Assembly: GCA_016928395.1 (NCBI GenBank)
Contig: JAFGKV010000037.1
Span: 1 to 22,646, forward strand
Length of the DNA: 22,646 nt
Origin: Candidatus Fermentibacterota bacterium
GTDB taxonomy: Bacteria; JAFGKV01
Direction: 5' to 3'
Every line of letters begins with the position of its first letter. Position 1 is the first letter of the stretch. Positions 7,872 to 22,646 of this stretch are shown piece after piece. A program made the position numbers and the translations under genes. The notes under the pieces are model-generated. The model was not told where the DNA came from. It saw only the letters and a list, made by a program, of their open reading frames with translations, and did not search any database.

Positions 7872-9104
7872 TTATGGCCCCGGCAGCCTCCGGCGGGTCC
7901 ACGGCTCGAAGCCCGTGAAACCCAGCGATGCCTCCAGGTAGGTTTCCTTCACCCCATACCGAAGCAACCCACCTCGACGGCCCACGGCGATCGCCACCTG
8001 GACCACGCCTTGCCCTTGACCGGCACCCAGCATTGTCCCCGCAGTGAACGCCTCATCCGACGGTGGCGTAGACGACATGCCTCCATCAGGAAGCGGTACC
8101 AAGTAGTACCCCGGCCGGGATCGATAGCCGATCCGGATGGGAGGATACGTGCGCTCCCCGTTCGTGGGTACGAACTCAAGACCGATGCTCACCACGGTGA
8201 CATCGCGAAATTCGTCAGATTGGCCTTCGAAGGTCGCCTCGCTCCATCTCTCCTTCCACACATCCGCGGCCAAGGAGAGACCTCTCAGCGGCCCGACACC
8301 GATGCCGGCCCCAAAGCGCGAGGGCAACGAATAGTCGAACTCCGTGCTCCGATCGACGTAATGGGTGGTATGGATGGTCAGAAGCCCGTTCCCGGTAGAC
8401 GATCCGCGCCAATACGCACCCAATCCAACTGTTCCACCATCCCAGAAGAATCCCAGTGCGGGGTAGCCTCCGCTGTGCTTCTGCAGCAGTTCATCCTTGG
8501 TGTCGACGTAGGAAGAATTCTCGAAATCCAAGTTGGAAATGGTGCGCACGCTGCCGAACAACCAACGCCATCCCGCGCCGATGCCGATGCCGGAGCCCGG
8601 CGAATACGCAATAGAGAGACCCCCGGCATACACTCCGCCACTGCGATTCAGTTTTCTTGTGTACGCCAACCCCGCCTCCGTAGTGCAGGCCTCGGCAAAA
8701 CTATACTGGGCGGAATGGAGTTGCTCAATACCCAATCCCAGGGCAACTCCCCATTGTAGAGGCAGAGAGAATACTCCTGATGAAAGCCGGCCCGATGTCA
8801 GCCGCTGCGAGGACGATCCATCGCTTCCCCAGTTTACAAATGGCCGATACGTCAGGTTGAACGACGCGGTAGACACGCGGGCAAGACTGGCAGGATTGAC
8901 GGCATCCACATAGGCGCCGGTCGCTCCCAGCCCTGCGCCTCCCATGGCGAATGCTCGCTGATCCACCGAGAGCATCGACTCGCCGAAATACTGGGACGAC
9001 AGAACTCCGGCCCCGTACACAGGAGTCAATCCTCCCGTAAAGACGCAACACAGAACCGCCACGCACGCCAGGCGCGGCCATAAATCGTGAGTTCTGGGTG
9101 TCAT
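7872..9104 (-). CDS. PorV/PorQ-like outer-membrane beta-barrel protein
   Basis: A 410-residue exported protein. Residues 1-32 are a signal peptide (hydrophobic LACVAVLCCVFTGG, cleavage near VYGA). The early mature segment, SVDQRAFAMGGAGLGATGAYVDAVNPASLA, is the pattern of PorV/PorQ and UPF0164 barrels of the FadL-like superfamily: an 'amggAg.a...da.....NPA' plug and first strand. The rest alternates aromatic-hydrophobic strands with Gly/Ser turns, as in a barrel of about 14 strands. In Bacteroidetes PorV relatives serve the type 9 secretion system; others have no known role. Its ATG overlaps the TGA of the lipoprotein gene by 4 bp (ATGA), so translation is coupled and the two are probably partners. 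The family call rests on the N-terminal motif and the strand pattern. Confidence 0.75.
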   Translation of the reverse strand: MTPRTHDLWPRLACVAVLCCVFTGGLTPVYGAGVLSSQYFGESMLSVDQRAFAMGGAGLGATGAYVDAVNPASLARVSTASFNLTYRPFVNWGSDGSSSQRLTSGRLSSGVFSLPLQWGVALGLGIEQLHSAQYSFAEACTTEAGLAYTRKLNRSGGVYAGGLSIAYSPGSGIGIGAGWRWLFGSVRTISNLDFENSSYVDTKDELLQKHSGGYPALGFFWDGGTVGLGAYWRGSSTGNGLLTIHTTHYVDRSTEFDYSLPSRFGAGIGVGPLRGLSLAADVWKERWSEATFEGQSDEFRDVTVVSIGLEFVPTNGERTYPPIRIGYRSRPGYYLVPLPDGGMSSTPPSDEAFTAGTMLGAGQGQGVVQVAIAVGRRGGLLRYGVKETYLEASLGFTGFEPWTRRRLPGP

Positions 9105-10625: not shown

Positions 10626-10713
10626 GCAGGGCTGATGGATCACTGTCGGCCGCGGCCGGCGCGCGTCGCACGCGAGCCGCTGGAGAATACACCACAACGC
10701 GATGGAGGGGTCC

Positions 10714-12315
10714 GTGAATCCACGGAGCCGATGGCCGCGCAAACCAGTCGTCTATGAGATCAATACGCGGATTTGGCTGGCGGATCTTCAGGATCGATTG
10801 GGTCGCGAAGTAACCCTTGCAGATGTCCCGGACCAGGCAATCACGCGATGGAAGAACATGGGAATCCACGCGGTGTGGCTCATGGGCGTCTGGAAGACCA
10901 GCCCGTACAGCGCCGAGCTCTGCCGAGCAAGCCAGGGATTGAGACACGAGGCCACGGAGATTCTTGGAGAGTTCCGCGACCGAGATATCGATGCCTCACC
11001 GTATGCGGTGGCAGGGTACGAGATCGACCCGGTCCTGGGAGGCCAGGAGGCCATGGGCGCCCTGCACGGTAGGATGAAGGAGCTGGGGGTTCTCCTGGTG
11101 CTCGATTTCGTGCCGAATCACCTGGCGGTAGACCATCCGTGGACTGCGGCCAAGCCTGAGCTGTTCGTGGCGGGGACCCAGGAGATCTTGGCCCACGACC
11201 CGGTAGCATTTTTCTCCGTGCCCGATGGCTCCGCCATCCTCGCCCATGGGCGGGATCCTCACTTTCCACCATGGTCAGACACCGCCCAACTGGACTACTT
11301 CAAGGAACAGACACATGAGGCCATGACCGATGAACTCCTGCGGGTCGCCGCGCACTGCGATGGAGTCCGCTGCGACATGGCCATGCTGCTCCTGCCGGAT
11401 GTATTCAAATCGGTCTGGGGATGGACAACGCCCGAGCGCACGCCACCGTGCTTCTGGGACAAGGCCATTGCGACGGTTCGCAAGAGAAACCCGGGCTTCC
11501 TGTTCATGGCGGAGGTCTACTGGGGGCTGGAGGGAGTCTTGCAGGGGAAGGGCTTCGATTACACGTATGATAAAACTCTGTATGACCATCTCGTGTCGAG
11601 ACGAACCAATGAAATCCACGCCCACCTCTCCACTCGCATCGGGTTCCACGAGCATGCCATGCGCTTCATTGAGAATCACGACGAACCTCGGGCGGCAGCG
11701 GTATTCGGCAAGGCGCAATCGAAGATGGCGGCTGCTATGATTTTGACATTGCCCGGCGCCACGCTTCTCCACCAGGGCCAGGAATACGGATGGCAGAAGC
11801 GGCTTCCGGTGCAGCTCCGCCGCCGGCCTATCGAACCTACCGACCATGATCTCGAGGCAGTGTACACAACCCTGATCCGAATTGCCGGCGATCAGGTGAT
11901 CCAGGATGGGAAGTGGGAGATGCTGGTGGTTGAAGCTGACCGCAGGCAGGATGTTCTCGCCTACCAATGGGTTTCACCGTATCACGAAGGCAGCCTGCTA
12001 GTAGTACTCAATCTCACCTCGGCATGGCAGACCGGATGTGCCCGGGCGACGTGTCTGGGCTCGCACATGACCCGGGTGAATGCCCATGACATCATGACAG
12101 GTAAGGATGAGATCCGCCCCGCGTTGGTGGCCACCCGCGTGGAGGTGCCATTTCGTCTTCCCCCGTGGGGCTTCAAGATTGTTCGGCTTGGCGTCCCCGG
12201 TCATCAGGCAGACGACACAGAGGGAAGGCGGGTAGTCACCGGCAATCCGAGGAATCGCAGGAAGCGAGGACCGGGAAAGACGCAGCCCCATCAAGACAAG
12301 GGCCACCAGATCTGA
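10714..12315 (+). CDS. GH13 alpha-amylase-family glycoside hydrolase or transglycosylase
   Basis: A 533-residue TIM-barrel enzyme with the GH13 signature regions: region I DFVPNH (131-136), region II GVRCD with nucleophile Asp221, region III FMAEVYW with acid/base Glu267, and region IV NHD with Asp323. The N-terminal VVYEINTRIW is typical of the first barrel strand. There is no signal peptide, so it acts in the cytoplasm on alpha-glucans or related sugars; the exact specificity cannot be read. GTG 10714 is preferred because GGAGGGG lies 5 nt before it. An ATG at 10702 in the same frame has only a weak Shine-Dalgarno. The last 37 residues or so are basic and low-complexity (NPRNRRKRGPGK) and lie beyond the expected C-terminal beta domain. 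They may be a tail read into former intergenic sequence. It stands alone, divergent from tatA. Confidence 0.88.
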   Translation: MNPRSRWPRKPVVYEINTRIWLADLQDRLGREVTLADVPDQAITRWKNMGIHAVWLMGVWKTSPYSAELCRASQGLRHEATEILGEFRDRDIDASPYAVAGYEIDPVLGGQEAMGALHGRMKELGVLLVLDFVPNHLAVDHPWTAAKPELFVAGTQEILAHDPVAFFSVPDGSAILAHGRDPHFPPWSDTAQLDYFKEQTHEAMTDELLRVAAHCDGVRCDMAMLLLPDVFKSVWGWTTPERTPPCFWDKAIATVRKRNPGFLFMAEVYWGLEGVLQGKGFDYTYDKTLYDHLVSRRTNEIHAHLSTRIGFHEHAMRFIENHDEPRAAAVFGKAQSKMAAAMILTLPGATLLHQGQEYGWQKRLPVQLRRRPIEPTDHDLEAVYTTLIRIAGDQVIQDGKWEMLVVEADRRQDVLAYQWVSPYHEGSLLVVLNLTSAWQTGCARATCLGSHMTRVNAHDIMTGKDEIRPALVATRVEVPFRLPPWGFKIVRLGVPGHQADDTEGRRVVTGNPRNRRKRGPGKTQPHQDKGHQI

Positions 12316-12758: not shown

Positions 12759-15700
12759 CTACTTCGCCCCCTTCATCGGCAGCTCGCGGGCAGCATCGGT
12801 GCTGGCGCCGATCTTCACGGCGAAGCTGTCTCCCCCCGCGATATCCTCATCGGTAATGATATGCACGTCCAACAGGCCATCGCTGCGACACCCGGTCCGC
12901 CCTTGGTTGATTTCGCCCAGGCACAGGCTCCATCCTTCGAGCCAGAGGGTGAGGTCCTGGCGCTGGGCAGGCGTCCCGGAAAAATGGATGAGAAGGTCAA
13001 TATCGCTGGCGGGGCCCGCCGTGGCGTTCTTCGTGCTGCCCAGAATGTACATGGCCCGAATGCCGAAGCGTTGGGGGTCGGTGTGAGCTGCGATTCGCTC
13101 CGCCATGCGCAACCGCCACCGCCAGTTCTCGGCGCCGTCTTGCTGGCACGACACATCAGCCCTTTCGCTGCTTTTCACCTCCCGCATCTCCACAGACGGC
13201 TCCGCGAGACACCCAATGGCCTCTTCCTGATCGGCATTCATGAGAACACGGAGAACCTTGCCTTCGGTGCAGCGGGGTACATCAATGACCCGCAGCGTGT
13301 CGGCCAGATGAGCAAACTCCGGAAGGAGTTCGGCGAGGATGTTCGGCGACCCCAGGAGGAAGGCTTCGTTGAACTTGGTACCATCCGTATCTGGATACAG
13401 CGGAAGATATCGGATAGAGGCCTCCACCAGATCCTGGAAAAAGTGGGTACCGAATGACACGTCGGGCACATAGTTGCCCTTTTTCCGTGCTACTTCGATG
13501 AGCATCGCGGTGTTGTTGATCTCAGAGTATGTAACCCTGACCCCCAGTTTGATGTCGCCCCGGCTGCCCCAGCGCCCGGGCCCGATCAAGACGAACTTCC
13601 TTCGTGGCAGGATCTTGTTCAGTCGGCCCACAGCCTCTCCCACCGCGCAGAGGTCAGCCAGCTCCGCCAGTTCCCCATACTTGTCGGGATCGACATAGAC
13701 GACGTGCGTAAGATCGGGCACGCGCCCGTTGGAGACGAACCGGTTGGCGGTGAACAGGATAGCTTCGTCGGGAAGACCTCTCGGTATTTCCGCCGCCACG
13801 TCCTCGCCGGATGAAGCCTGCGGTCTGCACTGGAGAAGATAGAGATCCGTGCCGTCGTGGGCGAACTCCACATCCACCGGCGCCTGCAGAGCCTGATCAA
13901 GGGTCCGCAGAATGGCCGCCATCTGCTTCACGAACGGCGTGCCCAAGACCAGCGTGTCGAATGTCGCCACGACATCGTCACGCTGGAAGTCGGTCATGAG
14001 GCCTACCCCGCGTGTGAGCATACCCCCGGAATGAACTGAGAAGACGGAACTCAGGGCGGGATACTCATGACCGCATTCCTCCAGAAGCTGTTTGATCTCG
14101 AGACTCTCGAAGCAGTTCTTCTCGAGGTTGATGACATCGACCTTCTTGGGGGCGTAGCGGATCACCTCATCGACAGAGACATTGACCCTCAGGTTCGGTT
14201 TGCTGGGGGCCACGAGCACGGGGTAGTCATCCCCGACCCGATCCACTGCGCGGGTTCCCAGCCCCGGCACGAGCCTCAGGAGGCCGTCTTCCCGCTTGAT
14301 CCGGGAGGACCAACGGAACTCGTTCCGGCTGAACGCAACCCCTGCGAAGGCCGGGAGAAAATACTTGCCGACCCGTTTCCCCACGACTTCCTGGATCATG
14401 ACCCCCATCTCTTCATTGAAATCCAGGAGACCACGTTCAGCCCGATACTCGATGGGATCCGGGCCAAAGGTCGATGAGTAGACCTCGGCAACCGCATCCA
14501 GCAGGGCCGCGAGACGCTCCTCCTTGGGCCCCTGGTTCGCGATGAAGAGGCTCTTGTACTTCCCGGAGAACGCCGTGCCGAGCCGATCTTCGAGCAGACT
14601 CGAACTGCGGACGATGACAGGCACCTCACCCAAATCGTCCAATGCCTGAGAGAGGCCCTTCACAAGCTCCTGGGGAAAGTAGCAGTGCTTGAATACCTGG
14701 ATGAGTTGAGGATACTCTCTCCGGACTTCGTCGACCTCTTTGTACTTCTGTTCGTATACATCGCCCAGGTTGTTGTGCCCGATGAAGGCCAGAATCCCAT
14801 CGGATGCCACAAACCACGTCCGCGGGGTCTTTACCGTGCCTATCCCCTGGTTCTTGGGCGCCATCCTCTTCAAGATACGGCTGGCCAGAAACAAACCAGC
14901 CGTCTTGCCGCCAAGCCGGCCGTAGCTTCCTGCCGGGAAGATGATGCGCTCGCTCAGCTCGAAGAAGTCTTCGATCTCGATGAAACGCTTCGCGATGTTT
15001 ATGTACTCGAGCTGCTCGGTAAAAAACCTCCGAATAAGCGCGACCTTGACGCCCTTCTCCGCTGCGGTGGGCAGTGTTGCGCCGACCGGCATCATCCTCC
15101 GGAACTTCTGCATCGCATCAAGAATATCGGTCAGCGGGGCATATACGTTCTGCAGCGTACGTACCAGCCCCGCCGACCTGTCTTCCTGAATCCACTGCTC
15201 AATACTGGAGAGAATCTCGTGGTCGGTGAGGTAGCGCGTCGATACTCTGAATGTCTCCTCACTGATACTGCCGACGGTATCCGAATCTGGGAGAACCTGG
15301 GGTTGGTTGGTCTCCCCGAACAGGCTCTCTCCTTCATGCACGCCGTAGCGCTGCAGCAACGAACGAGCCTCGGCCGCGCCGATCCAGGCGAGATAGTTGA
15401 TCATCTTCCTGGAGATCCGCGTCAGAAGGTCAGGATCTGTTTTGCGGAGGAGTTCGAGGGCCATGAACCACTCGGGCCGCGCGGTGTCGATGAGTTGCTC
15501 CCGCTCCTGGCGAACCGTCTCGAACATGGCGCGAAGCCGATGATGCAGGATGTAGTGGCCGAGACGGTCGGCGATGGTGCGGAGGAGTTTGACCTCCTCC
15601 CGGAGGAACTGCCCCTCGTCACCCTGTGGACGCTCTTCTCGGTAGTATACGCAAATCTTGCCTACCGGAGCGTCCTGCACCCTGATGTCAGCGCAGAAGC

Positions 15701-15944
15701 CCCATGGTGTCGGCTCGTAGTCGTCGGTGCGAAAGACATGCGGCCCGTACGAGATCTCGGTTACGCAGATGTCCGAGTGCTGCAGAGCCGGCGGAATCGC
15801 CTGGGCCACGCCGGCGAAGGCCTCCTCGGGCGACGTGGTGGGGCAGTTGAGAAGTTCCTCGACCCGGTAGAGGCACCGCAATTCCTTTGCCCGCTCGTGC
15901 AGCGTGGAGAAAAGTGAGCCCGCAGCTCTGGTGGTCTTATCCAT
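12759..15944 (-). CDS. GAF-like / PPDK ATP-binding / nucleotidyltransferase fusion protein
   Basis: A 1061-residue multidomain protein. Residues 20-135 look like a GAF sensor (closing segment FLREEVKLLRTIADRLGHYI). Residues 335-710 form the ATP-grasp nucleotide-binding domain of PEP synthase/PPDK, with GSYGRLGGKTAGL (339-351), VIVRSSSLLED (443-453), MIQEVVG and the closing VEFAHDGTDLYLLQCRP. Residues 725-850 form a module shared with the downstream-numbered neighbour (GPGRWGS 788-794, FGTHFFQDL 831-839). Residues 945-1061 form a Pol-beta/MNT nucleotidyltransferase domain, with LGS (968-970), DID (981-983) and a third acid at Asp1026. The phosphohistidine and PEP/pyruvate TIM-barrel domains of real dikinases are absent, so a PEP synthase label would be wrong. 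ATG 15944 overlaps the preceding gene by 8 bp (ATGGATAA). The best ribosome-binding match, GAGGAG, is 12 nt away, so coupling probably drives translation. Domains are inferred by motif; function is unknown. Confidence 0.85.
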   Translation of the reverse strand: MDKTTRAAGSLFSTLHERAKELRCLYRVEELLNCPTTSPEEAFAGVAQAIPPALQHSDICVTEISYGPHVFRTDDYEPTPWGFCADIRVQDAPVGKICVYYREERPQGDEGQFLREEVKLLRTIADRLGHYILHHRLRAMFETVRQEREQLIDTARPEWFMALELLRKTDPDLLTRISRKMINYLAWIGAAEARSLLQRYGVHEGESLFGETNQPQVLPDSDTVGSISEETFRVSTRYLTDHEILSSIEQWIQEDRSAGLVRTLQNVYAPLTDILDAMQKFRRMMPVGATLPTAAEKGVKVALIRRFFTEQLEYINIAKRFIEIEDFFELSERIIFPAGSYGRLGGKTAGLFLASRILKRMAPKNQGIGTVKTPRTWFVASDGILAFIGHNNLGDVYEQKYKEVDEVRREYPQLIQVFKHCYFPQELVKGLSQALDDLGEVPVIVRSSSLLEDRLGTAFSGKYKSLFIANQGPKEERLAALLDAVAEVYSSTFGPDPIEYRAERGLLDFNEEMGVMIQEVVGKRVGKYFLPAFAGVAFSRNEFRWSSRIKREDGLLRLVPGLGTRAVDRVGDDYPVLVAPSKPNLRVNVSVDEVIRYAPKKVDVINLEKNCFESLEIKQLLEECGHEYPALSSVFSVHSGGMLTRGVGLMTDFQRDDVVATFDTLVLGTPFVKQMAAILRTLDQALQAPVDVEFAHDGTDLYLLQCRPQASSGEDVAAEIPRGLPDEAILFTANRFVSNGRVPDLTHVVYVDPDKYGELAELADLCAVGEAVGRLNKILPRRKFVLIGPGRWGSRGDIKLGVRVTYSEINNTAMLIEVARKKGNYVPDVSFGTHFFQDLVEASIRYLPLYPDTDGTKFNEAFLLGSPNILAELLPEFAHLADTLRVIDVPRCTEGKVLRVLMNADQEEAIGCLAEPSVEMREVKSSERADVSCQQDGAENWRWRLRMAERIAAHTDPQRFGIRAMYILGSTKNATAGPASDIDLLIHFSGTPAQRQDLTLWLEGWSLCLGEINQGRTGCRSDGLLDVHIITDEDIAGGDSFAVKIGASTDAARELPMKGAK

Positions 15945-17670
15945 GGCGTCGTATCACTCCTCTGCCGTTTCGCCCATCCACGCAGACGGAGAGAGGATTC
16001 TCCGCCTGCACATGCCGAATGAATCTCGTTCGCGCCACCTCAGCCTGCGCCTCCAGCCAATTCCAGTCAATCCCATGCTGCTCTGTGTGACGCACTGAGA
16101 AATAGGAAACCTTGAAACTTGTGAGATTGTGGAAGAAATGGGAGCCTTGGCTCAGGTCAGGCTGCATCTGCGGCAATGTCGCCTCTACAATAACGCGGGC
16201 TCCGGAGATCGTGCTCCAGTTCACGGGGATTCCAAGCCAGGGATCCGAGGAACCCCACCGCCCGAATCCTACCAGGAGATAGGGCCTCCCCTCGTCAACG
16301 AGCGGCAGGTTGATACGCTCCAGCTCCTGGGCGATACGCGGAGTGAAGCGCGGTTCGAACATCTCGGGCATCACGTAGACGATGTCACGGATATCGTCCC
16401 TTTGTCCATTGCCCAAGACCGTCTCGGACGCCACGATGACTCTATCGCCCCTGAGTTCCTCCACGGGGAGAAGAATCTCTTCATTGGACACCACCATGGG
16501 CCGAACCTGGAGGAAGCCGAACCGGGCGGGAATGCCGCGTTTCCGATCCAGCGTGACCGCGAACTCAACCTCCACGGGCGCCTTTACCGATTCCTCGCTG
16601 GCCTTGAGCACCGCGCGGATAAGATCATTGAACGGCACTTCCTCGTATTCCAAGATCGGAGCAAAATTCACCACCCTCGGCCCCTCGGGGCCTACCCCCG
16701 GCATCAGTCGGTCGGAGCGTGGATCATACGTGGACGCGACGAACCGCAAGGTATTGTCGTAGTCTGCCGCATCAAGACCGAGTTGCACCAAATACTCGGT
16801 CTCCCGAATGGGGTCATGGGGCGGAGACGCTCCCATGTTGACGGCCCAGAAGGCCGTCTGCGAACTCTTGAGCAGTTGACCAATACTCCCGTAGGGCGGC
16901 GGCGCCTTGGGATATGCGGGGGAATAGGTCCACACCAGCCCGCCGTCGACGATGGTCTTTCCCAGCCCGAGGGCAAGATCCACCACGCCATCCTCAGGCT
17001 TGGCATATCCGCTTGGGTAGAAGTTGTAGGATCGGGCGACCCCCGCGAAGGTAGGGTAGAAGCGATCCGTCACGGGAGAACCCACTACTTCCTGGATGAT
17101 GACCGCCATCTTCTCCGCTGAAGGATCCTTGCCGACTGTCCTAAGGTATGCCTTCGCCTCGCGGAAGAAGGTCGATGCCCACACGAACTTCACCGCTTCC
17201 ACCAGCCGGCGGAACCGGGCATCGGGATCAGGCTGATTGTTGGGGATCATCTTGGTGGCATAGACGCCGGCGAACGGTTCATACATGGCGTCTTCCAGCA
17301 TGCTCGATGAGCGCACGGCCAGGGGAACGCGCACGTCGTTCGTCACGGCGCGCAGGTCTCCCACCAGTCTCGCGGGAAGATCGCCCCGCTGGAACGCGTG
17401 GCCTATGCGCTCGTCGGGCAGATCTGAGTATGCCGTGTCGAGAAGATCGTTCTGCGCCAGGAAGGCATCGAAGAAATCGGTGCCGATAACCGTCATGCGG
17501 GGGATGGTAATGGTGAACCCGGGTGTCCGATCGGGCGGGAACTGCTGCCGGATGGTTTGTTCGACGGTCAAAAGTCCCTGCGCTTTCCCGCCAAAAGATC
17601 CGGTTCCTATCCGGGATACGGGGCTTTCGCCGTCGAAGAATCTCCTGTCGAAGCTGGAAAGATCAGTCAT
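15937..17670 (-). CDS. PPDK ATP-binding-domain protein without phosphohistidine or PEP domain
   Basis: A 577-residue cytoplasmic protein. Residues 18-392 form the ATP-grasp domain of the PEP synthase/PPDK family: GTGSFGGKAQGLL (22-34), LAVRSSSMLED (117-127), IIQEVVGSPV (191-200) and the closing EVEFAV...FGFLQVRP (367-391). Residues 405-530 form the same module as in the 1061-residue partner, with VGFGRWGSSDPWLGIPV (467-483) and SQGSHFFHNL (507-516). It stops before any swivelling phosphohistidine domain, so complete pyruvate phosphorylation is not expected. ATG 17670 follows GGCGGAG at normal spacing. It lies 82 bp after glutamate dehydrogenase and overlaps the next gene by 8 bp, so the three are probably cotranscribed. 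It could bind or hydrolyse ATP as a regulatory subunit, or phosphorylate an unknown substrate. Automated labels of 'phosphoenolpyruvate synthase' would mislead. Confidence 0.85.
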   Translation of the reverse strand: MTDLSSFDRRFFDGESPVSRIGTGSFGGKAQGLLTVEQTIRQQFPPDRTPGFTITIPRMTVIGTDFFDAFLAQNDLLDTAYSDLPDERIGHAFQRGDLPARLVGDLRAVTNDVRVPLAVRSSSMLEDAMYEPFAGVYATKMIPNNQPDPDARFRRLVEAVKFVWASTFFREAKAYLRTVGKDPSAEKMAVIIQEVVGSPVTDRFYPTFAGVARSYNFYPSGYAKPEDGVVDLALGLGKTIVDGGLVWTYSPAYPKAPPPYGSIGQLLKSSQTAFWAVNMGASPPHDPIRETEYLVQLGLDAADYDNTLRFVASTYDPRSDRLMPGVGPEGPRVVNFAPILEYEEVPFNDLIRAVLKASEESVKAPVEVEFAVTLDRKRGIPARFGFLQVRPMVVSNEEILLPVEELRGDRVIVASETVLGNGQRDDIRDIVYVMPEMFEPRFTPRIAQELERINLPLVDEGRPYLLVGFGRWGSSDPWLGIPVNWSTISGARVIVEATLPQMQPDLSQGSHFFHNLTSFKVSYFSVRHTEQHGIDWNWLEAQAEVARTRFIRHVQAENPLSVCVDGRNGRGVIRRHG

Positions 17671-17703: not shown

Positions 17704-17738
17704 GCACACCCTCCCCGAAAATGCCGGAGAGGGTGTGC
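17704..17738 (-). promoter_or_regulatory. Strong intercistronic hairpin
   Basis: GCACACCCTC pairs perfectly with GAGGGTGTGC. After one mismatch three more pairs form inside, leaving a short loop. It fills much of the 82-bp gap between the dehydrogenase stop and the next start. No T-run follows on the minus strand, so it is more likely an RNA-processing or stability element or a leaky terminator than a full stop. Confidence 0.55.
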
Positions 17739-20301: not shown

Positions 20302-21723
20302 GTGCATCTCAGGCATCTCGGTGCCCTTATGCTCGCCTTACTCCTCCCCTGGACGGTCGCGGCAACACCGCTTACCCTCGCAATGGCTCCCTCATCCGAG
20401 CGGGGCCTGGCCTCCAATTCTCTCTCGACCCTCGTCTGGGACGGTGCCCGGCTCTGGGCAGCCAGCGGCAGCGGCGTCAGCCATTCCCTGGGTGTGCCCA
20501 CCACTGCGTTGGACTGGGTGACCTTCACCACCGACGACGGCCTGCCTTCAAACATCATACCTGCCCTGGCCGCCCAGGACGGGATCGTCATCGTGTCGGC
20601 GGCATCCTATGACGATCCCGATCTGAGTTACACCTTGGATCGGGGCGACGGTCTCTTCCGCTCGGACGACCTGGGTGCCACATGGGATTCTCTTGGCTTG
20701 AATCGGGCAGTCGGCATCGGCAATATCTGCTGGGACGTGGCCCTGGCCGGCAATGCGGTATGGGCTGCCTGCTGGAACGGGAAGGCAACCTCCGACTTTC
20801 CGTCAGGGTTGGCCCTGAGTACCGATGGCGGCGCCACATGGGCATACCCCGATGTGGCAGACACCATCGGGCCTCTGTGCTTCGCCCTGGCTGCGGCCGA
20901 TTCGACGTGCTGGGTGGGGACAGGCCAGGGAATCGGCCGTACGACCGACTTCGGAGCAACATGGCGCTCGTTCAGCTACGCCAGCACAGACGGAGACATC
21001 TCCGGTGATTGGATCGTCGCGCTTGAGGTTCACCCCGATGACCCACAGGCCGTGTGGGCCGCGACCCGCGCCATTCCTTCCATGGACGGTCAGCCGGGCT
21101 ATGGCACTGACGGAGCCTGCTTCAGTCTCGACGGAGGAGGCGCGTGGCACCGAATCGAAGAACTGGTGGGTGCCAGTGTATGGGACTTTGCATTCTCCGG
21201 TGACACGGTCTGGGCGGCCACGGAGGAGGGGTTGGGGTTCTCACCAGACCGGGGTGCCACATGGTCCCTTCTGACCAGAGACGCGGGTCTACCCGAAGAG
21301 GTGTTCTATTCGGTGGCCGTCGTCGGATCCCACGTGTACGCGGGATCCGACGACGGCCTGGTGTGGAGCAATGACCGCGGTGTCACCTGGCAGGTCATGT
21401 TGGCCAGTCAACCCCAGGGGACCCTTGATACACCCGAGGTGTATGCGTATCCGAATCCATTCAGCCCCAGGCGGGGTCAAACCGCCCGGATCCGCTATAG
21501 CTTGGGAAATTCGTCCCGAGTGTGGCTCAGGATCTTCGACTTCAATGAGCATGTGGTGCGCACCCTGACGGACGGCCAGCAACGAACCCTGGGCGATCTC
21601 CTCTTCGAATCGTGGGATGGCCTTGACGACCAGGGGCGCCTCGTGCCCAACGGGACCTACTTCTTCCGCTTACATGCAGAACGAGGCGCCCCGTCATACG
21701 GCACAATCATGGTGTTGGACTGA
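20302..21723 (+). CDS. Secreted Asp-box beta-propeller with C-terminal FlgD-Ig-like domain
   Basis: A 473-residue exported protein. Residues 1-21 are a signal peptide (LGALMLALLLPWTVAA). The body has six sialidase-type Asp-box motifs at 121-128, 173-180, 214-221, 275-282, 314-321 and 356-363 (SDDLGATW, STDGGATW, TTDFGATW and similar), a BNR-type propeller. Residues 380-473 form a FlgD-Ig-like domain: VYAYPNPFSP, VWLRIFDFNEHVVRTL, WDGLDDQGRLVPNGTYFFRL. In FCB-group bacteria such C-terminal domains occur in surface or secreted proteins and resemble type 9 sorting domains. No catalytic residues are apparent, so binding is more likely than hydrolysis. The start is GTG, set by a perfect AAGGAGGT 7 nt before it. 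Its TGA shares one base with the next ATG, so translation is coupled to the barrel gene. Confidence 0.85.
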   Translation: MHLRHLGALMLALLLPWTVAATPLTLAMAPSSERGLASNSLSTLVWDGARLWAASGSGVSHSLGVPTTALDWVTFTTDDGLPSNIIPALAAQDGIVIVSAASYDDPDLSYTLDRGDGLFRSDDLGATWDSLGLNRAVGIGNICWDVALAGNAVWAACWNGKATSDFPSGLALSTDGGATWAYPDVADTIGPLCFALAAADSTCWVGTGQGIGRTTDFGATWRSFSYASTDGDISGDWIVALEVHPDDPQAVWAATRAIPSMDGQPGYGTDGACFSLDGGGAWHRIEELVGASVWDFAFSGDTVWAATEEGLGFSPDRGATWSLLTRDAGLPEEVFYSVAVVGSHVYAGSDDGLVWSNDRGVTWQVMLASQPQGTLDTPEVYAYPNPFSPRRGQTARIRYSLGNSSRVWLRIFDFNEHVVRTLTDGQQRTLGDLLFESWDGLDDQGRLVPNGTYFFRLHAERGAPSYGTIMVLD

Positions 21724-22646
21724 TGCGATACACAACGCTCCTCACGCTAGTGTTCCTGACGACGGCTCACGCGCGGGTCAACCCCGGCGACTTCCTCAGC
21801 ATGCCTTTCGACCCTTCCACGGCAGCCCTAGGCGACGCCGCCGAAATCCTGCGGGGAGGCGCCGCCTCGGCACTGCGCAACCCGGGAATCATCGGAAGCA
21901 TGGAATCCCGCGAGGTGTTTGCGGCGCACACCTTCCTTTCCCTACACCGGCGACTCGATGCCGCGGCTGTGGCCATGCCCATCGGCAACCACGGAACGCT
22001 GGCCATCGCCGGAGTCCAGGCCGCGGTGGACAAGATCGACGGCAGAGATCTGAATGGCCGCCATACTGGCTATCTTACCGACACGCGCAATGCCGTATCC
22101 TTCGTATTCGGCCTGCGCCCCATCCCACAGGCCTCCTTCGGCATCGCCATCAAGGCGTTGTTCCGGGAGATGTCCGAGGAGACCGCCAGCGGCACCGCGT
22201 TTGACATCGGGGGTCGCGCGGAAGTCTACGAAGGCATCACCGTAGCGCTGACAGGCCGAAATCTCGGCATCATGAGGCCCAAGGGTCGGCCTATGGGGGC
22301 CTATTGGCCGTGGAACAGCTCCTACTGGTCTGACGACTTGCAGGTACAAAAGGATGACCGGATCCCGCCATCCCTGGCCTTCTCGGCAGCATCAAGATCC
22401 CTGCCGTGGGGACTGCGTGCGGGGCTGGGGGTGGCGAAGACTGAAGGCGAGGCCGCAACGGTCTCTGGAGGTCTAGAGTATCCCGTGGATAATCGCCTGA
22501 CGCTCCGGGCCGGGGGAACAGTCGATTCACCCGCGCTGGGTGCGTCAATGCTGATTCCGGTATCGTCCGCGCTCGTCACTGTGGGATATGCCTGGAGCAC
22601 GGGAGAGTTGACGAACGACCCGATTCATCGAGTTTCTCTGACCTCT
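21723..22646 (+). CDS. PorV/PorQ-like outer-membrane protein, partial at right edge
   Basis: The frame is open for 308 codons to the window end, so the C-terminus is missing. A signal peptide (MRYTTLLTLVFLTTAHA) leads into SMPFDPSTAALGDAAEILRGGAASALRNPGIIG. That is the PorV/PorQ/UPF0164 N-terminal pattern of a Gly-Asp-Ala plug followed by 'NP'. The rest shows barrel-like alternating strands with recurring Gly and aromatic girdles (FVFGLRPIPQASFGIAIKAL, VGYAWSTG). The last visible strands suggest it is nearly complete. Its ATG overlaps the stop of the propeller gene by 1 nt. It could anchor, export or assemble the propeller protein at the cell surface. It resembles the 7872-9104 product in family but not closely in sequence. 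Confidence 0.78.
   Translation, partial: MRYTTLLTLVFLTTAHARVNPGDFLSMPFDPSTAALGDAAEILRGGAASALRNPGIIGSMESREVFAAHTFLSLHRRLDAAAVAMPIGNHGTLAIAGVQAAVDKIDGRDLNGRHTGYLTDTRNAVSFVFGLRPIPQASFGIAIKALFREMSEETASGTAFDIGGRAEVYEGITVALTGRNLGIMRPKGRPMGAYWPWNSSYWSDDLQVQKDDRIPPSLAFSAASRSLPWGLRAGLGVAKTEGEAATVSGGLEYPVDNRLTLRAGGTVDSPALGASMLIPVSSALVTVGYAWSTGELTNDPIHRVSLTS

Follow-up and report, generated by a model that had tools for sequence, protein, structure and literature searches.

In PEP synthase and PPDK, the ATP-grasp domain is followed directly by a swivel domain; the catalytic His of PPDK, in the motif GGxTSH, begins a helix that comes after a Gly/Ser loop. Ammonia assimilation is controlled by the nucleotidylation carried out by GlnE and GlnD, and in this system the nucleotide is also removed. 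Glutamate dehydrogenase (GDH) joins carbon and nitrogen metabolism in most cells, and, to our knowledge, little has been described of covalent control dedicated to it in bacteria. PPDK-type phosphotransfer can be split over two proteins and directed to non-pyruvate acceptors, as in the two-component dikinases HpeHI, CreHI, and PpsAB (PMC12167813); in the HpeHI type, one protein carries the ATP-grasp and the other carries the swivel and substrate domains. In rifampin phosphotransferase (RPH) of Listeria, roles have been assigned to residues of the ATP-grasp (PMC4844700).

We analyzed a stretch of 22,646 nucleotides from a Candidatus Fermentibacterota bacterium (contig JAFGKV010000037.1), referred to here as the window, and focused on a single open frame with an ATG start and 1061 codons. 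As shown in Table 1, its product combines a sensor, a PPDK-type ATP-grasp, and a nucleotidyltransferase. The gene is the last of three, after GDH and a short paralogue; the paralogue overlaps it by 8 bp, and GDH lies 82 bp upstream of the paralogue. We read the protein as a phosphohistidine transferase that is gated by its sensor and dedicated to GDH, and to which a nucleotidylation cycle has been added, and give this reading a probability of about 0.48. The operon is conserved, the active-site residues are intact, and the nucleotidyltransferase active site and a metallophosphoesterase co-occur and are lost together; the covalent modification itself is what we infer from these observations.

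Table 1. Features of the window
Feature	Position	Strand	Basis
1061-aa protein: GAF, helical region, PPDK_N ATP-grasp, GRWGS module, nucleotidyltransferase	12759..15944	minus	
GAF sensor domain, residues 1-151	15492..15944	minus	VIA-align Z 10-13 to many GAF structures
Helical region, residues 155-330	14955..15482	minus	kept in orthologue alignments; all-helical in AlphaFold model
PPDK-type ATP-grasp, residues 343-720	13785..14918	minus	Pfam PF01326 (PPDK_N), E 3.7e-58
GRWGS module, residues 712-916, probable diverged phosphohistidine-type swivel domain	13197..13811	minus	model and VIA-align
Codon of invariant H834 in SFGTHFF, proposed phospho-acceptor	13443..13445	minus	conservation
MNT-like nucleotidyltransferase, residues 940-1061; G969-S970, D981, D983, D1026	12762..13127	minus	PF01909, Foldseek, conservation
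Short PPDK_N + GRWGS paralogue, 577 aa, without sensor or nucleotidyltransferase	15937..17670	minus	PF01326, 1e-33
Strong RNA hairpin with 15-bp stem in the 82-base gdh-paralogue gap	17704..17738	minus	gap fold -39.2 kcal/mol, z -4.4 vs shuffles
GDH, first gene of the operon, 442 aa	17753..19081	minus	PF00208/PF02812
Alpha-amylase-family protein, convergent to the 1061-aa gene	10702..12315	plus	
Protein with weak PorV/BamG-like, FlgD-Ig, or sortilin-like matches	7875..9104	minus	
Protein with weak PorV/BamG-like, FlgD-Ig, or sortilin-like matches	20302..22646	plus	

Conservation was assessed in an alignment of 83 orthologues, a few of which are truncated in the nucleotidyltransferase region. 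No variation was seen among them at K347, R446, S465, D691, E693, Q705, R707, R791, W792, or H834, and since the named motifs are invariant or nearly so across these rows, the sequences indicate that they are under selection. The frame and motifs picked out by an earlier sequence-only reading of this DNA are therefore real: Pfam, the 83-row conservation, and an AlphaFold model of the full protein (pLDDT 84.5) agree with its list of parts. Its claim of a GAF-like sensor was borne out by structure alignment, in which residues 10–142 of the model matched GAF crystal structures (best 3cit, Z 13.1, 2.2 A over 123 residues); no Pfam GAF match was obtained at E 0.01 in the 1061-aa protein, and it is the predicted structure that identifies the N terminus as a GAF fold. 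GAF domains matching at positions ∼5–150 were also found in other long frames of the sampled genomes. The nucleotide-binding domain of PEP synthase/PPDK, which had been called intact, is likewise present, with its catalytic residues K347, R446, S465, E693, Q705, and R707 kept in 83/83 orthologues. A sensor, an ATP-grasp, and an intact nucleotidyltransferase in one chain, and the signal-responsive modifying enzyme proposed from them, thus fit the Pfam, fold, and conservation evidence.

The best structural match of the ATP-grasp in Foldseek was RPH (8.5e-15). The equivalents of RPH K22, R117, T136, and E297 are kept and are invariant in the orthologues, the position of T136 being Ser in this protein and Thr in the short paralogue. 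Unlike RPH, the protein has no recognized rifampin-binding domain, its swivel-like module directly follows the ATP-grasp, and it has an added sensor and nucleotidyltransferase and a place in a GDH operon. The NCBIfam model RIF_Ptrans_rph matched the ATP-grasp only, at 31.2 bits, below its equivalog cut-off of 999. The order of ATP-grasp and swivel-like domain is that of PEP synthase and PPDK; in contrast to these enzymes, the motifs GRWGS and SxG[ST]HFF stand in place of GGxTSH, and neither PF00391 nor a Pfam match to the PEP/pyruvate-binding barrel was found in the 1061 residues, the model ending in the nucleotidyltransferase instead.

The GRWGS module, for which there is no Pfam model, sits where a phosphohistidine swivel domain would be. 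H834 was present in 83/83 orthologues, the equivalent position was His in 67/67 paralogues, and of the distant members readable at this position, nearly all keep the SxG[ST]HFF motif. Like the catalytic His of PPDK, H834 is placed at a helix start after a Gly/Ser loop. Folded alone (74 sequences), the module reached pLDDT 92.3 and pTM 0.91, and among its top VIA-align rows, at modest scores (Z 5–6), were PPDK central domains, the swivel of RPH, and the PEP-utilizer-like domain at the C terminus of pyruvate kinase from bacteria. Interspersed with these were LD-carboxypeptidase, TRiC apical, RraA, and further domains, which share the swivelling beta/beta/alpha fold. The match to the RPH swivel (5fbu, 756–867) had Z 6.0, and residues 304–915 of the full-length model aligned with residues 13–467 of PEP synthase (2ols) through the ATP-grasp and module together, with Z 25.9. 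No significant match to the module alone was returned by Foldseek, and its low-ranking rows (CD38, CoaD, LD-carboxypeptidase, and others) were taken as noise. Comparison of the module alone with PEP-utilizer domains by hhalign profiles gave no signal, and in an ATP-grasp-anchored alignment to PEP synthases the local match of the paralogue reached only the start of the swivel (template position 397 of 495), leaving the His unplaced.

Because of the position of the module, its swivelling beta/beta/alpha-like fold, and the invariant H834, we consider it quite probable, judging from the models, that the GRWGS module is a diverged phosphohistidine domain, from which it follows that the protein probably keeps the first half of the dikinase reaction. 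The sequence-only reading had held the dikinase domains to be missing and had named the detection of a phosphohistidine domain as evidence against itself. For the PEP/pyruvate-binding barrel the loss stands; a phosphohistidine domain is probably kept in diverged form, and its detection was nearly reached, with a swivel-like fold and an invariant His at hand and PF00391 absent. Both this protein and its paralogue carry an ATP-grasp and a swivel-like module, neither with a recognized substrate domain, unlike the division of labor in the HpeHI type. If the swivel assignment is true, it suggests a branch of swivel-type phosphohistidine domains, so far unrecognized, that acts on partners in trans.

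Relatives of the protein were found at 80 loci, with 52–84% identity and nearly all covering the whole query; the nearest named one is from a "Candidatus Eisenbacteria" MAG (84%). The loci are labeled Aminicenantes, Zixibacteria, Calditrichota, Acidobacteriota, Bacteroidota, Krumholzibacteriota, Planctomycetes, Gemmatimonadetes, Myxococcales, and others, and the breadth of this spread is clear even though some MAG labels are possibly wrong. The architecture, whose distribution had been proposed as a check, is therefore not a one-off fusion. A characterized homologue with the same architecture, of which the sequence-only reading knew none, did not appear in the literature searched or in Pfam, NCBIfam, or PDB sequences.

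All neighbors of these 80 loci were clustered with no targets named beforehand. GDH was nearby at 68 loci and at 62 of these lay upstream in the same orientation; among the 12 loci that lack it, 11 run into a contig end no more than 4 kb upstream, and L090 alone had enough upstream sequence (9.9 kb) to show a GDH. The paralogue/neighbor cluster was present at 61/80 loci, and of its 55 best-placed copies, 51 either overlap the start of the main gene or stop no more than 50 bp from it. In an independent sample of the wider family, GDH lay within 3 kb at 30/46 loci. With equal flanks of 1.5 kb, it was found at 20/46 family loci and at 0/41 PPDK/PEPS/EI loci (Fisher 2e-7; the control loci include overlapping and repeated ones). 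The closest NCBIfam model to the GDH of the window was GdhA_Arch (468 bits, below the cut-off of 750). Elsewhere the linked GDHs were either NADP-specific, above the curated cut-off, or archaeal-like, and the subfamilies differ in their sensors too; since the linked GDHs belong to different types, their sequences indicate that the association is not simply one inherited gene block. In the window, the hairpin between gdh and the paralogue is not followed by a T run and may set the ratio of gdh to downstream expression or act as a processing site.

For 12 of the 46 sampled members (one of them truncated), no glutamate-forming enzyme was recognized nearby. As judged from gene neighborhood, the link to glutamate-forming enzymes is nevertheless strong, and the enzyme probably controls or works with GDH. 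The target had been left as "a protein, RNA or small molecule"; because the GDH operon is conserved across phyla, GDH or glutamate metabolism now appears the likelier one. Three members of ∼870–920 aa (L139, L140, and L141) adjoin gltB/gltD, and L140 also has glutamine synthetase nearby.

We propose that the PPDK-type ATP-grasp would use ATP to phosphorylate H834 in the module next to it, as the invariant residues and the fold suggest. Since the acceptor domain usual in such enzymes, whether a PEP/pyruvate barrel or a rifampin-binding domain, is absent, phospho-H834 would then hand its phosphate over in trans, with the co-encoded GDH as the most likely recipient. GDH would thereby be switched by whatever the GAF domain senses, or, in relatives, by receiver-like domains. 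In this subfamily, the C-terminal nucleotidyltransferase may add a nucleotide to GDH or a partner, and the co-occurring metallophosphoesterase may remove it. The resemblance to GlnE/GlnD is one of analogy, with no homology shown beyond the superfamily; here, unlike there, removal would fall to a separate phosphoesterase, and the suspected target is GDH rather than glutamine synthetase or PII.

The Pfam model NTP_transf_2 (PF01909) matched residues 959–993 at 22 bits against a cut-off of 21, and Foldseek placed the C-terminal domain with MNT antitoxins, ANT(9), and AadA (E about 0.02–0.1). The domain resembles MNT-type enzymes (MntA, the ANT(9)/AadA fold) in its GSx10DxD motif, third Asp, and fold; unlike them, it is fused to a PPDK-type protein and pairs with GDH and a metallophosphoesterase. 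The three acids first noticed in the sequence (Asp981, Asp983, and Asp1026) held up, being present together with G969 and S970 in 75–78 of the 83 rows. They have decayed at six loci (L036–L040 and L112). In the Aminicenantes loci L036–L040, the fused domain is kept and its catalytic motif is lost, a natural separation of the two activities.

A metallophosphoesterase was adjacent at 41/80 loci by neighbor clustering and at 49/80 by a more sensitive search. It belongs to the Metallophos family and keeps the canonical metal-site motifs. Among 290 sampled genomes, strong orthologues of it occurred in 9/12 with a nucleotidyltransferase-bearing member and in 0/278 others (Fisher 6e-15). Where the nucleotidyltransferase was intact and the phosphoesterase not adjacent, an unlinked copy was found in 11/16 genomes, and the genome of the window has such a copy; in the genomes of the six decayed loci, none was found (0/6). 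Adjacency and genome search combined gave 60/65 for intact against 0/6 for decayed nucleotidyltransferases (p 3e-6), a p-value that overstates independence, as presence was ascertained in two ways and the decayed cases, five of six from Aminicenantes and mostly also lacking related paralogues, are few independent events. This co-occurrence and joint loss across genomes fits a writer-eraser pair. In a genome-wide comparison of the short paralogue with the nucleotidyltransferase, the paralogue profile also matched receiver-type relatives, which made the pattern ambiguous. In most cases the phosphoesterase gene runs convergently, on the other strand, and its neighbor in some genomes is a receiver-type relative instead; for this reason it may serve the wider family rather than the nucleotidyltransferase alone. 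The window has an alpha-amylase-family gene in the convergent position where many relatives have the phosphoesterase.

The gene neighborhood fits modification of GDH and use of glutamate alike. The main alternative, which we regard as unlikely, is a metabolic phosphotransferase in which the phosphate on H834 goes to glutamate, 2-oxoglutarate, or some metabolite derived from them, the operon being its pathway. Characterized relatives do phosphorylate small molecules, namely pyruvate, rifampin, and phenols (PMC12167813, PMC4844700), and some of the family lies beside other glutamate enzymes, with three distant members lacking GDH next to glutamate synthase large-subunit genes and one member near glutaminase. 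However, no small-molecule acceptor domain is recognizable, no other pathway gene recurs among the clustered neighbors, and sensor domains and a nucleotidyltransferase would be unusual on a pathway enzyme. The missing acceptor domain would equally suit a non-catalytic, energy-sensing partner whose ATP-grasp binds nucleotide and which alters GDH activity allosterically, and the GDH link, our strongest signal, agrees with it; yet the invariance of the ATP-grasp catalytic residues and H834 (83 orthologues, 67 paralogues) goes beyond what mere binding needs and makes such a partner distinctly improbable.

It is very improbable that the nucleotidyltransferase is a separate toxin-antitoxin- or defense-like add-on with no tie to GDH. 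Its matches to NCBIfam MntA (17.5 bits against a cut-off of 60) and to the candidate defense model PDC-S09 (24 bits) point that way weakly, but most orthologues, in an operon of housekeeping type, carry it as a fusion whose position is conserved, and no HEPN/HepT partner was noticed among recurrent neighbors. A defense-system reading of the locus was rejected, as the candidate models matched only the nucleotidyltransferase and the phosphoesterase, and these weakly.

Returning to the phosphohistidine transferase dedicated to GDH, its parts are of known kinds; the open-licence literature searched has no description of their combination, of the acceptor in trans, or of the GDH link, and we found in it no account of GDH with PPDK-like, nucleotidyltransferase, or phosphoesterase partners. 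It is possible, if rather doubtful, that sensor-driven phosphohistidine transferases of the PPDK superfamily modify GDH covalently and reversibly as a new and widespread control of ammonia assimilation, to which this subfamily adds a second cycle of nucleotidylation and phosphoesterase action. The family is kept beside GDH across many phyla, most of which have hardly any cultured members or none, and this points to a layer of nitrogen control that is common yet unstudied.

The nucleotidyltransferase-bearing form occurred in ∼12 of ∼290 sampled genomes, and shorter or receiver-type relatives were commoner. Some relatives have receiver-like matches in place of GAF. Proteins of ∼1000 aa with receiver-like, PPDK_N, and GRWGS parts repeatedly adjoin NADP-specific GDH (L030, L031, L046, L060, L089, L155, and L157–L161), and from these gene arrangements the shared core has a second pairing with GDH, separate from the first. 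The genome of the window encodes a third member, of ∼996 aa and the receiver-type subfamily (G000:C188:17343-19088; L028:7171-10161), which is not beside GDH and adjoins a histidinol-phosphate-aminotransferase-like gene. Elsewhere in the window, the weak PorV/BamG-like, FlgD-Ig, and sortilin-like matches of two proteins suggest, by sequence, that this lineage has a type IX-like set for secretion or the outer membrane.
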